Assembly: GCF_014189455.1 (NCBI RefSeq)
Contig: NZ_CP050296.1
Span: 2,414,001 to 2,478,000, forward strand
DNA: 64,000 bases
DNA from: Mesorhizobium huakuii
GTDB taxonomy: Bacteria > Pseudomonadota > Alphaproteobacteria > Rhizobiales > Rhizobiaceae
Reading direction: 5' to 3'
Positions 34,644-38,891 of this stretch are shown in pieces (position 1 is the stretch's first letter; every line of letters starts with the position of its first letter). Both the position numbers and the translations under genes were made by a program. The notes under the pieces are model-generated. The model did not search any database. It was not told the origin of the DNA and was given only the letters and a program-made list of their open reading frames with translations.

Positions 34644-35525
34644 ATGAACTGGGATGACGTCCGCATCTTTCTCGCCGTGGCGCGCGCCGGCCAGATCCTT
34701 GGCGCCGCCAGGCGGCTGGAGCTCAACCATGCCACCGTCTCGCGCCGCATCGCCGCACTCGAGGACGCGCTGCGCACGAAACTCTTTCGCCGGCTGACCA
34801 CCGGCAGCGAGTTGACGCCCGCCGGCGAGCGCTTCCTCGACATTGCCGAGCGCATGGAGGGTGACATGATCGCCGCGCGCTCGACCATATCGGGCGAAGG
34901 TGACGATATCTCCGGCACCGTGCGCATCGGCGCGCCGGACGGGTTTGGCGTCGCCTTCCTGGCCAGGCGCCTCGGCGAACTGACCGCGCTGCATCGCGAG
35001 CTGACGATCCAGCTCGTGCCGGTGCCGCGTTCCTTCTCGCTGTCCCGGCGCGAGGCCGACATCGCCATCACCGTCGAGCGGCCGACCGAAGGCCGGCTGG
35101 TGGCGGGAAAGCTGGTCGACTATTCGCTCGGCCTGTTTGCCTCGCGCGCCTACGCCGATGCCAATGGTCTGCCCAAAACCGCCGCCGAACTCGGCCAGCA
35201 CACCCTGATCGGCTATGTGCCTGACCTGATCGTCAGCCCTTCGCTCGACTATGCCTCTGAATTCAGCGCCGACTGGCGCACCAGCTTCGCCATTTCCTCG
35301 GCACTTGGCCAGGCCGAAGCGGTGCGCTCGGGCGCCGGCATCGGCATCCTGCACACCTTCGTCGCCCGCTCGATGCCGGAACTGGTCGCCGTCGATGTGG
35401 TGGCACCCATCCGCCGCGCCTACTGGCTGGTCTATCACGAATCGGTCAGGCCGCTGCGCCGCATCCAGATCGTCGCCGGCTTCATCACCAAGGCGGTGGA
35501 GCGGGAACGGGGCTTGTTCTTGTGA
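34644..35525 (+). CDS. LysR-family regulator
   Basis: A 293-residue regulator starting MNWDDVRIFLAVARAGQILGAARRLELNHATVSRRIAALEDALRTKLFRR. The effector domain (DDISGTVRIGAPDGFGVAFLARRLGELTALHREL) follows. The frame is open through the repeat upstream, but family homology starts here. The arrangement is unusual in that the 5' leader is a dispersed inverted repeat. It lies divergent from mmsA (330 bases away), which may be its target. Confidence 0.9.
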   Translation: MNWDDVRIFLAVARAGQILGAARRLELNHATVSRRIAALEDALRTKLFRRLTTGSELTPAGERFLDIAERMEGDMIAARSTISGEGDDISGTVRIGAPDGFGVAFLARRLGELTALHRELTIQLVPVPRSFSLSRREADIAITVERPTEGRLVAGKLVDYSLGLFASRAYADANGLPKTAAELGQHTLIGYVPDLIVSPSLDYASEFSADWRTSFAISSALGQAEAVRSGAGIGILHTFVARSMPELVAVDVVAPIRRAYWLVYHESVRPLRRIQIVAGFITKAVERERGLFL

Positions 35526-36100: not shown

Positions 36101-36297
36101 CTCGCCTAAAACCTACATCGGACAGCTCTTGCGGGCCGATGCATATCGAGGCAGATGATAGCACATGCATGCTGTGATCGTGCCGCCTTTTCCTTGCCAC
36201 AAAATCAGCGAGGGTGGAAGCAAGCGCGATGTCGCCGATCACGTAGGGGCTGGCTGCGACGGGTGGGACATTTTTTGCATAGCTGGCGCGGATAAAC

Positions 36298-36741
36298 ATG
36301 CGAGCCGTTCTTGCCATCCTGCCGCTGCTTTTCGTCTCGGCTTGCGCCAACCCGTGGACGAAAGTGCCGGAAGCCGAATTGCCTAAGCCGATCCGCTACG
36401 CCATGGCGCGCCCCTCGCCTTTCGTCATTGGCAATTATTGCGGTCCGGGCACTCGCACCGGCGATCTGTCGGCCCGACCGGTCGACCGGCTTGACGCGGT
36501 CTGCCAGACCCATGACGCCTGTTACATCGCCCGCCACAATCATTGCGACTGCGACGGTGCCCTCGTCGCCTCGGCCAGGGCCATCCGCGACGACAAGACG
36601 GCGCCCCGCAAGATGCGCGACGAGGCGGAATTGCTGATCGCTACATTCGCCATTCCCGTCTGCAAGGTATTTCCACAGGGCTTCATGCCGCCGCGCGACC
36701 CGGCACAGTTGAGCGCCATGAAGGCCGGAGCCGCCGGGTGA
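36298..36741 (+). CDS. Phospholipase A2-like lipoprotein
   Basis: A 147-residue protein with a lipoprotein signal MRAVLAILPLLFVSAC (lipobox Cys16). The mature part has a calcium-loop-like GNYCGPGT (residues 45-52) and the active-site helix DAVCQTHDACY with His72-Asp73 flanked by Cys69 and Cys75, the arrangement of phospholipase A2 (C-x2-H-D-x-C-Y). More cysteines follow (CDCDGA at 83-85, CKVF). It is short like prokaryotic PLA2s. Its stop overlaps the start of the PLD-like gene (GTGA). Predicted to hydrolyse or bind phospholipids in the envelope; activity unproven. Confidence 0.72.
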   Translation: MRAVLAILPLLFVSACANPWTKVPEAELPKPIRYAMARPSPFVIGNYCGPGTRTGDLSARPVDRLDAVCQTHDACYIARHNHCDCDGALVASARAIRDDKTAPRKMRDEAELLIATFAIPVCKVFPQGFMPPRDPAQLSAMKAGAAG

Positions 36742-38891
36742 ACCGACGCGCCTCCATCATCCTTGCCCTCATCGGGCTGGCCGCCCTTGCCGGTTGTACC
36801 GGCACAGGCCGTAATACCTGCGATCTCCTGCCGGGACAGGAGGCCTGCGCGCGGCCCTCTCTGTCGGCAGGCACGCCCGGGCCGCGGGTCGCGGCGTCGC
36901 AGTTTTTCGGCGATGCCGGCAGCAGCGACTACGAAAGACGCTTCCTGGCGCTGCTTGCCCACAATCAGCTCGACGCCATGGACCGCGCCAACGGCACCGG
37001 CCCGTTCGGGCGCAACCGGCGCGACGTGCAGAACAATGACTTCCAGGCAACCTATTCGACGCTGCTGCAACTGGCCGGACCAGTCGCCAAGGCGCATCTG
37101 CCGCCGGCCAGTGGCGGCAGCGGCGAGGGCTATTTCGACGGCCGCTGGCGGGTGTCGCGACAGACGCTTTACATCGACGCGGCAGCGCGGCCCTTGGCTC
37201 CCAAGACTTTCGATTTCTCCGGCCTACAGGCACGCAGCACCGAGATCGTCCTGCGCCAAGCGGGCAAGCAGCCTGCCGACATCGAGGGCACCTGCGACGG
37301 TCCTCTGGCGATCCGCGCCGCCGGCGCCTCGCGCACCATCGCCGCCGGCGCGGCGTTTCGCTTTCGCCTGTCCGGCGAAGACGACACGGTCAGCCTGTTT
37401 CCAAGCGACAGCCTGAACCGCTGCACGGTAAGAATCCGCTCCAGCCTTGCGCCGGCCGGCGCGCCGCTCACCATCCGGCGCGAAGAGACCGCCGATCCGA
37501 CACTCGCCAGCATCGACAGCCGCTATGAGCGTTGCCCGGTCCCCGACAGCGCCGGCCTCGACGCGCTCGAGCGCGCCTTCTATGCCAGCCGCTGGCTGTC
37601 GCAGACCTGCGCCCTGCCGATCGGCCAGCCCAAGCTGCTGCGCAAGTCGCGCGACGGCTTCAACGCCAAGGTCGAGGCGCTGATGGGCGCGCCGCTGTCG
37701 GATGCGGCAATAGACAAGGGCGATCCGGAGCTGCCGCTCGATTTCTCCAGGGCGCCAAGGCTGAAGCTGATCTATCTGTCCTCGCTCGAATTCAAGGCCG
37801 ACTTTTCCGGCTGCATCATGGAACGGCTGATCCGTCATCATGCCGCCCTTGGCACCAAGGTGCGCATCATGGTCACCGACGTGCTGGAGCGCGAGAAGGA
37901 CGACGCCATGCTGCACCGGCTGGCGGCCGAGTTCCCCAATGTCGAACTGCAGGAATACCGCTGGCGCGCCGATCATGGCGCGCCGATCGACGAGCAGATC
38001 TCACAACTGCACAAGACCCATCATATCAAGATGCTGGCGACGCTGGCTGAGGTCCCCGCGCGCTCGCGCGTCATCATCGGCGGCCGCAACATCCATGACG
38101 GATTCCTGTTCCACAGCCCGATCGACCTGTCGCGTTATCCGGACCTGCAGCAATACGGCAAGACCGACGGGCTTTCGCTGAACTACTATTCGAACTGGAG
38201 CGACTTCGACATCGAGTTCGCCGACAAGGCGACGGTCGAGACGCTTGCCGCGCATCTGTCGACGATATGGTTGCGCGACGCCGACACCAATCTGGCGCGC
38301 CCCTTCTCCATCCCGGTTCGCGGCGATGGCCGCCCCCGAGGCAACGCCCGGCATTTCATTTCGGTGCCCTATGAGGACGACCATGCGCTGGAGGCCTATT
38401 TCGTCGAGCTGGTCGATGCCGCCCAACACCACATCCAGATCGTCAACCCCTACCTCAATCTGACGCCGAGCCTCGCCCAGGCCGTTGACCGGGCACTTGC
38501 CCGTGGCGTCAAGATCGACATTGTCGGCCGCATCGATCTCAAGGGCGATATTGGCGGCAGGTTCCTCACCGCGCTCAACAAGCTGTTCGTCGAGAAGTAT
38601 GGCGACCGCATCAACATCCGCGAGTTCAAGGCGCCCGACGTGGTGCTGCATTCCAAGATCATGATGATCGACGAAAGGCTGGTCGCCATCTCCTCGGTCA
38701 ATCTCAACAACCGCAGCTTCTTCCACGATTCAGAGAACGGCATGACGGTGCTCGATCCCGCCTTCTACGTCAGGATGAAGCCGATCTATGACGACTACCT
38801 CGCCCACTCGAACCCGGTCGCCACCAAGGTGACGATCCCCTGGGCCTACCGGCTGCTCTTTGACGAGGCTTGGGTCAGGCAGGCGTTCTGA
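36738..38891 (+). CDS. Phospholipase D-family lipoprotein
   Basis: A 717-residue protein starting with GTG (VNRRASIILALIGLAALAGC), a lipoprotein signal with lipobox LAGC. About 300 residues of N-terminal region without a recognised fold precede two PLD modules. The first is KTHHIKMLATLAEVPARSRVIIGGRNIHDG (HxK plus downstream GGRN), the second VVLHSKIMMIDERLVAISSVNLNNRSFFHDSENG (HxKx4D ... N). The two HKD halves form one PLD active site in the family. Predicted envelope phosphodiesterase or cardiolipin-synthase-like enzyme. Overlaps the PLA2-like gene by 4 bases, so the pair is coupled. Confidence 0.85.
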   Translation: MNRRASIILALIGLAALAGCTGTGRNTCDLLPGQEACARPSLSAGTPGPRVAASQFFGDAGSSDYERRFLALLAHNQLDAMDRANGTGPFGRNRRDVQNNDFQATYSTLLQLAGPVAKAHLPPASGGSGEGYFDGRWRVSRQTLYIDAAARPLAPKTFDFSGLQARSTEIVLRQAGKQPADIEGTCDGPLAIRAAGASRTIAAGAAFRFRLSGEDDTVSLFPSDSLNRCTVRIRSSLAPAGAPLTIRREETADPTLASIDSRYERCPVPDSAGLDALERAFYASRWLSQTCALPIGQPKLLRKSRDGFNAKVEALMGAPLSDAAIDKGDPELPLDFSRAPRLKLIYLSSLEFKADFSGCIMERLIRHHAALGTKVRIMVTDVLEREKDDAMLHRLAAEFPNVELQEYRWRADHGAPIDEQISQLHKTHHIKMLATLAEVPARSRVIIGGRNIHDGFLFHSPIDLSRYPDLQQYGKTDGLSLNYYSNWSDFDIEFADKATVETLAAHLSTIWLRDADTNLARPFSIPVRGDGRPRGNARHFISVPYEDDHALEAYFVELVDAAQHHIQIVNPYLNLTPSLAQAVDRALARGVKIDIVGRIDLKGDIGGRFLTALNKLFVEKYGDRINIREFKAPDVVLHSKIMMIDERLVAISSVNLNNRSFFHDSENGMTVLDPAFYVRMKPIYDDYLAHSNPVATKVTIPWAYRLLFDEAWVRQAF

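Follow-up and report, generated by a model that had tools for sequence, protein, structure and literature searches.

Two proteins that act on phospholipids at the bacterial surface are the closest functional precedents for the locus described here: ClsO, a surface lipoprotein of the phospholipase D (PLD) superfamily that synthesises cardiolipin in the outer leaflet and contributes to maintaining the barrier (PMC12846801), and PldA of Escherichia coli, a calcium-using enzyme that degrades mislocalised surface phospholipids (PMC5874903). The locus lies within a 64,000-nucleotide stretch of the Mesorhizobium huakuii genome (GCF_014189455.1, contig NZ_CP050296.1, 2,414,001-2,478,000), hereafter the window, in which all positions are given. 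It consists of a gene for a phospholipase A2 (PLA2)-like lipoprotein (gene 1), overlapped at its end by a gene for a PLD-superfamily lipoprotein (gene 2). We give about an even chance to the suggestion that this pair serves phospholipid remodelling, or repair and quality control, in the outer membrane.

The product of gene 1 shares with the secreted PLA2 (sPLA2) superfamily (PF00068) the YCGxG calcium-loop motif, an HDxCY helix, a second helix with CxCD and a predicted fold that is nearest rice PLA2. It differs from that superfamily in having a lipoprotein signal, in falling below the Pfam cut-off and in being adjoined by a PLD gene. In addition, the loop between YCGxG and the HD helix is about 5 residues longer than in the aligned animal chains, and His72 and Asp86 are separated by 14 residues, far fewer than in pancreatic sPLA2. 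OmpLA/PldA (PF02253) has in common with the PLA2-like protein the proposed calcium-dependent removal of acyl chains from outer-membrane phospholipids, but it is a beta-barrel and unrelated to it.

The product of gene 2 resembles ClsO in its lipoprotein signal, its membership of the PLD superfamily and its two-half layout, whereas its first HKD motif lacks the Asp, an extra N-terminal region stands ahead of the PLD halves, and it has a PLA2 partner. In the report on ClsO, homologues were validated by both HKD motifs and another putative synthase was named with Tyr in place of one Asp; its main text makes no mention of Mesorhizobium (PMC12846801). Among three E. coli proteins compared with the gene 2 profile, the closest is ClsA (47.1 bits, in its C-terminal half), followed by PssA (25.5 bits) and ClsC (24.4 bits); ClsO, by contrast, is reported to resemble ClsC most. 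ClsC aligns to the profile in both halves and in the same order, GGRNI included. Identification of the gene 2 product as ClsO or ClsC was rejected, as its first motif is incomplete and the C-terminal half of ClsA is closer. The best match by sequence to its catalytic part among solved structures is SpPLD of Serratia plymuthica (7E0M), which carries both HKD motifs in full and is predicted to have an ordinary signal peptide (PMC8004604). SpPLD and E. coli PssA are also the best Foldseek matches to this part; PssA differs in being a protein of 451 residues with two HKD motifs and no N-terminal region like that of gene 2. Among the matches listed from the open-licence literature, judged by title and the start of the abstract, none described such a pair, which is weak evidence of novelty.

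The two genes overlap and are neighbours across Mesorhizobium

Gene 1 was found at 74 loci in GTDB genomes, 67 of them in records titled Mesorhizobium, and gene 2 is immediately downstream at 73 of the 74. The remaining locus (L086) stops at a contig edge inside gene 1, and gene 2 is incomplete at two of the 73, being mostly deleted in L047 and cut by the contig end in L057. The 4-base GTGA overlap reported in an earlier, sequence-only reading of this DNA was confirmed at the same coordinates (Table 1). Across the loci, a script found a 4-base NTGA overlap available as the start of gene 2 in 69/73; it is also visible when the sequences of L084 and L085 are read, and it was left unscored in L047 and in L083, where gene 1 is frame-broken. 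When the start was picked by its nearness to the start of the query match, the same overlap was obtained in 65/72 loci. This arrangement suggests that genes 1 and 2 form one translationally coupled operon, whose co-transcription we infer from the sequence.

Table 1. Positions of the operon, its motifs and adjacent features in the window
Feature	Position	Strand	Basis or remark
Gene 1, PLA2-like lipoprotein, 147 residues	36298..36741	+	Open reading frame, Pfam, profile, predicted fold
Lipobox VSAC, Cys16, Ala at +2 (gene 1)	36334..36345	+	Pattern
Calcium-loop motif YCGPG, residues 47-51	36436..36450	+	YCGxG in 73/73 loci
His72-Asp73	36511..36516	+	Invariant in alignments A1 and A3
Asp86 of CxCD, candidate Asp99 equivalent	36553..36555	+	Conservation over 73 loci
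GTGA stop/start overlap, gene 1/gene 2	36738..36741	+	Sequence
Gene 2, PLD-superfamily lipoprotein, 717 residues, GTG start	36738..38891	+	Open reading frame, Pfam, structure search
Lipobox LAGC, Cys20, Thr at +2 (gene 2)	36786..36797	+	Pattern
First active-site motif H429-x-K431...GGRN, Asp missing	38022..38090	+	Sequence, conservation
Second active-site motif HSKIMMID...SVN	38649..38702	+	Sequence, Pfam
25-bp inverted repeat, TGCCACA-N11-TGTGGCA (consensus), 103 bp upstream of the PLA2 start	36195..36219	.	Alignment, pattern scans
LysR-type regulator gene, next upstream on the same strand	34644..35525	+	Possible regulator
Optional exported protein, 190 residues	35528-36100	-	At the same place in 35/74 loci (E<=1e-15)

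Within 61 genomes of the genus, gene 1 was detected in 39 (E<=0.001) and gene 2 in 40 (E<=1e-40). Both genes are present in 38 genomes and neither in 20, while the other three have one gene alone as a fragment, namely residues 1-62 of gene 1 in G040 and C-terminal pieces of gene 2 in G028 and G048. The 38 include one genome with a truncated gene 2 (G019) and one with gene 1 in two pieces (G001). The pair is thus not limited to one strain, and the idea that these are strain-specific neighbours was rejected on these counts.

Beyond the genus, absences are soft, as only part of the first-look candidates was scored in most genomes of the family and order searches. Gene 1 was found in 10 of 199 family genomes and gene 2 in 15 (E<=1e-30), all 10 being among the 15, and in each of the 10 the two genes lie on one strand, with gene 1 directly before gene 2 (three belong to the genus, and the gene 1 match in G085 spans one TAA). 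Five family genomes have gene 2 without gene 1 (G067, G171, G241, G126 and G221). Among 297 genomes of the order, gene 2 occurs in 8, comprising 6 of the genus and 2 others without gene 1, and gene 1 matches occur in 16, comprising the same 6 and 10 distant genomes with solitary relatives. A phylogeny of 19 gene 2 proteins contains three changes in the presence of gene 1, at least two of which are forced by strongly supported branches; one early gain of gene 1 followed by losses is possible, and long branches make this history unsure.

The distant solitary PLA2-like proteins occupy 13 places in the 10 non-genus genomes, and at 9 of these places (8 genomes) no PLD matching the gene 2 profile was found within ~5 kb. 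Solitary proteins from other families of the order (L138-L146) have a signal-like N-terminus when inspected by eye, and 8/9 contain HGNYCGxG; none of them adjoins a PLD of this family. In L122, L123, L124 and L125, one gene or both persist at the conserved site as remnants or truncated copies.

Active-site residues and predicted folds

The PLA2-type calcium loop and active site noticed in the sequence-only reading are well founded, since the core formed by the loop and the His-Asp pair is kept in 73/73 loci (L013-L085) and no homologue lacking His72-Asp73 was met among them. These two residues lie in the stretch CQTHDACY, and we take them to be positions 48-49 in sPLA2 numbering. The protein also carries the NYCGPGT motif and LDAVCQTHDACY. 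Residue 86 is Asp in 70 of the 73 loci and Asn in 2, with no match in 1; its equivalence to Asp99 is a candidate assignment drawn from the CxCD pattern and from where the helices lie, rather than from coordinates.

PF00068 matches the window protein below its cut-off (E 1.5e-5, 25.9 bits against a gathering score of 32.1). At E<=0.01 the same family is matched by 43/44 members of alignment A3, the window protein included, and a precomputed PF00068 label is attached to 50/68 listed homologues. PF08398 matches the gene 1 product with E 5.4e-4, and NCBIfam returned nothing for it at E<=1. A profile of 23 gene 1 proteins retrieved sPLA2 chains from the PDB (best E 4.1e-5), and a second-look aligner placed the predicted fold closest to rice PLA2 (2wg7-2wg9); with Foldseek alone, no PLA2 structure was matched at E<=0.001. 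Structure prediction is thus in line with the PLA2-like fold that had been proposed. As a separate observation, phrog_11353, a phage family of unknown function, matches the PLA2-like protein with E 4e-12, which is below any Pfam E-value.

A protein that falls short of the Pfam gathering score, has Asn at the Asp86 position in some members and is partnered by a PLD gene in 10/10 family genomes might be no enzyme but a partner or subunit that binds lipid and hands substrate to the PLD-superfamily protein. We regard this as quite unlikely, as the calcium loop and His72-Asp73, which are catalytic positions in sPLA2, are invariant. The PLA2-like protein would instead be a small calcium-dependent enzyme of sPLA2 fold that removes the sn-2 acyl chain.

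The gene 2 product is, on sequence grounds, a two-half PLD-superfamily protein. In the window it matches PLDc_2 (PF13091) with E 2.7e-17 and 63.3 bits (cut-off 27), and its predicted PLD fold matches a solved structure in Foldseek with E 1.8e-13. The description of two HKD-type motifs holds for the second, which is a full HxKxxxxD (His638-Lys640-Asp645), and is inexact for the first (His429-x-Lys431...GGRN), because Leu stands there in place of Asp. Both forms are conserved, HxK...GGRN in 72/73 loci and the full HxKxxxxD...SxN in 71/73, the exceptions being the deleted copy in L047, the gene that runs off the contig in L057, and L060. The N-terminal region had been taken to lack a recognised fold; here AlphaFold2 corrects the picture, predicting with moderate confidence helices at residues 48-116 and a run of strands at 138-248.

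NCBIfam matches of gene 2 to PssA, cardiolipin synthase, DrmC and NucT are all far under their cut-offs. A known defence system was considered and rejected, as the PLD domain drew only weak PADLOC matches (DrmC-, MkoB- and MkoC-like) and the PLA2-like protein none. The window genome encodes further PLDc_2 reading frames of 502, 478 and 751 residues, with two domain matches each. Those of 502 and 478 residues are plausibly standard cardiolipin synthases, so that bulk cardiolipin probably does not depend on gene 2.

Sorting signals, selection and a possible role in the outer membrane

Both lipoboxes recognised in the earlier reading were recovered. Scored by a loose lipobox pattern, not by SignalP, lipoprotein signals are present in 72/73 loci for gene 1 and in 71/72 scored loci for gene 2; an unusual Asp precedes the Cys (LSDC, LADC) in 17/72 gene 1 lipoboxes. 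Position +2 of gene 1 is Ala in 68 loci and Asp in 0, and Asp is likewise found at +2 of gene 2 in 0 of the loci scored. In E. coli, the absence of Asp at +2 favours the outer membrane, and because neither protein has it, both are probably outer-membrane lipoproteins under that rule. Lipoprotein sorting rules differ between species (PMC12846801).

The median pairwise ratio of nonsynonymous to synonymous substitution rates is 0.137 for gene 1 (71/73 sequences, 2332 pairs after the divergence filter) and 0.256 for gene 2 (71/72 sequences, 2483 pairs after the same step), the pairs not being independent of one another. Both genes are under purifying selection.

If the operon serves outer-membrane remodelling or repair, both lipoproteins would act on phospholipids of the cell's own envelope. 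The PLA2-like enzyme would release the acyl chain, and the PLD-superfamily protein would cleave off the head group or swap it for another, through phosphatidyl transfer and possibly through cardiolipin synthesis as in ClsO. Together they might clear or rebuild damaged or wrong-leaflet phospholipids, jobs that are done by OmpLA elsewhere. No OmpLA (PF02253) was found in any of the 61 genus genomes, the window genome included. Of 14 named genomes searched as a control, 2 gave a match (E. coli and Methanocaldococcus jannaschii), and one of the two matches exceeded the cut-off. A fuller version, in which the operon is an undescribed repair system whose lipid-anchored sPLA2-fold enzyme and PLD/transphosphatidylase, made from a coupled message, work sequentially on surface phospholipids, replace OmpLA and answer to a dedicated regulator through one operator, is put forward tentatively and seems to us somewhat doubtful. 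Were the remodelling or repair role right, an sPLA2-type enzyme would be working with a PLD-type partner in the envelope of the bacterium that makes it, and rhizobia lacking OmpLA would gain a means to mend or remodel their outer membrane. This would extend the very recent idea of phospholipid chemistry at the bacterial surface (ClsO, 2026).

The sequence-only reading had offered first phospholipid remodelling, then defence against the membranes of other cells and toxin delivery, as roles for the pair. The coupled PLA2-like and PLD-superfamily lipoproteins and the remodelling role are supported, and the other two roles are weakened because the neighbours are ordinary chromosomal metabolic genes, the signals are of lipoprotein type and selection is purifying. 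PLA2 and PLD chemistries both occur in known membrane toxins, which would suit a pair of toxins delivered to other cells, bacterial or eukaryotic. Nevertheless, the lipoprotein-type signals on both proteins and the purifying selection within a conserved metabolic synteny argue against such a pair, and no immunity or secretion gene was recognised among the conserved neighbours, as had been noted before, in an analysis that included no dedicated search for such genes. In two species ClsO itself had earlier been taken for a secreted lipase, a reading that the authors of the ClsO report call a misannotation (PMC12846801). We consider delivery as a toxin very improbable.

A conserved inverted repeat upstream of gene 1

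An alignment of 67 upstream regions, the window included, revealed a conserved block holding an inverted repeat (Table 1), which is a new part of the locus, absent from the earlier reading. The window copy has 2 mismatches to the consensus. When the best site within 400 bp upstream was taken for each of 73 loci, there were 0 mismatches in 39, 1 in 20, 2 in 6, 3 in 5 and 5-6 in 3, so that 59/73 loci have at most 1 mismatch and 70/73 have at most 3. In the 59 loci with at most 1 mismatch the spacer is always 11 bases, though 9-13 were allowed. In the 70 loci, the distance to the start of gene 1 is 78-104 bp in 59 and 156-214 bp in 11. The repeat is missing (5-6 mismatches) in L082, L084 and L085, which fall outside the main group or on its margin. 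As a background, 4/2032 blocks of 400 bases from the rest of the same loci reach 2 mismatches or fewer.

Perfect sites were found at 23 places in 21 of the 61 genus genomes, and 21/23 are just upstream of gene 1; the reversed control pattern was found at 1 place. A perfect site is present in 21/39 gene 1-positive genomes, the window genome not being among them, and in 0/22 genomes without a gene 1 match. The perfect form of the repeat is nearly confined to this operon in the genus. The window's degenerate copy, with mismatches allowed, is not unique in its genome, where a loosened pattern, searched with one mismatch, had 34 matches on the forward and 28 on the reverse strand; the reversed control had 62 and 65.

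Of 50 distinct sites, 43-49 retain Watson-Crick pairs at each of arm positions 2-7, G-T cells occur at two arm positions (4 each) and the outermost pair is broken in 14. The repeat may be an RNA hairpin rather than a DNA operator; the spacer, fixed at 11 bp, and the nearly single target of the perfect form suit an operator. The repeat looks like a DNA operator serving this operon, and control of the operon could run through this dedicated upstream site. The neighbouring LysR protein would be the obvious candidate for the regulator acting there.

Genomic neighborhood of the operon

The usual order of genes in Mesorhizobium is aldehyde dehydrogenase, LysR, optional exported protein, gene 1, gene 2, DAO-family oxidoreductase, alanine racemase and Nudix, where we take the dehydrogenase to be mmsA-like and the oxidoreductase to be dadA-like. 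LysR was found in 71/74 loci. The order mmsA, LysR, gene 1, gene 2 is kept in G085 and G127, and mmsA and LysR precede gene 2 without gene 1 in G067 and G171; in G091 and G090 the pair is present, and neither mmsA nor LysR was matched in the 12-13 kb examined.

This neighborhood bears on two further explanations. In one, the surface enzymes would free acyl chains as well as head groups (choline, ethanolamine, glycerophosphate) from the phospholipids of plants or dead cells for use as nutrients. Mesorhizobium is a soil and plant-associated genus, lipoprotein anchoring suits digestion at the surface, the patchy spread through the genus (38/61 genomes) fits an accessory catabolic trait, and genes of amino-acid catabolic type are among the neighbours. 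However, no uptake gene for phospholipid, choline or phosphate was recognised among the conserved neighbours, and the upstream site does not look like a phosphate box, no Pho-box scan having been made; we think such scavenging unlikely. In the other, lysophospholipids, phosphatidic or lysophosphatidic acid, or free fatty acids made by the pair would act on the legume during infection. The concentration of the loci in a genus that nodulates legumes (67/74 by record title) would suit this, but the genes lie in an ordinary metabolic stretch with no symbiosis gene recognised beside them, and the PLD gene also occurs in other families of the order, which makes signalling to the host improbable. Remodelling or repair of the cell's own outer membrane remains the reading we prefer.

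The optional exported protein, encoded on the opposite strand, has no Pfam or NCBIfam match at E<=1 and is not counted as part of the two-gene unit. A scan for transcription signals gave no sigma-70-like site, and 3 terminator-like sites against 2.7 in shuffles. Rfam at gathering scores gave nothing within the operon; elsewhere in the window it identified a 6S RNA gene (RF00013, 7845-8000, minus strand) and a tRNA gene (RF00005, 56660-56746, plus strand).
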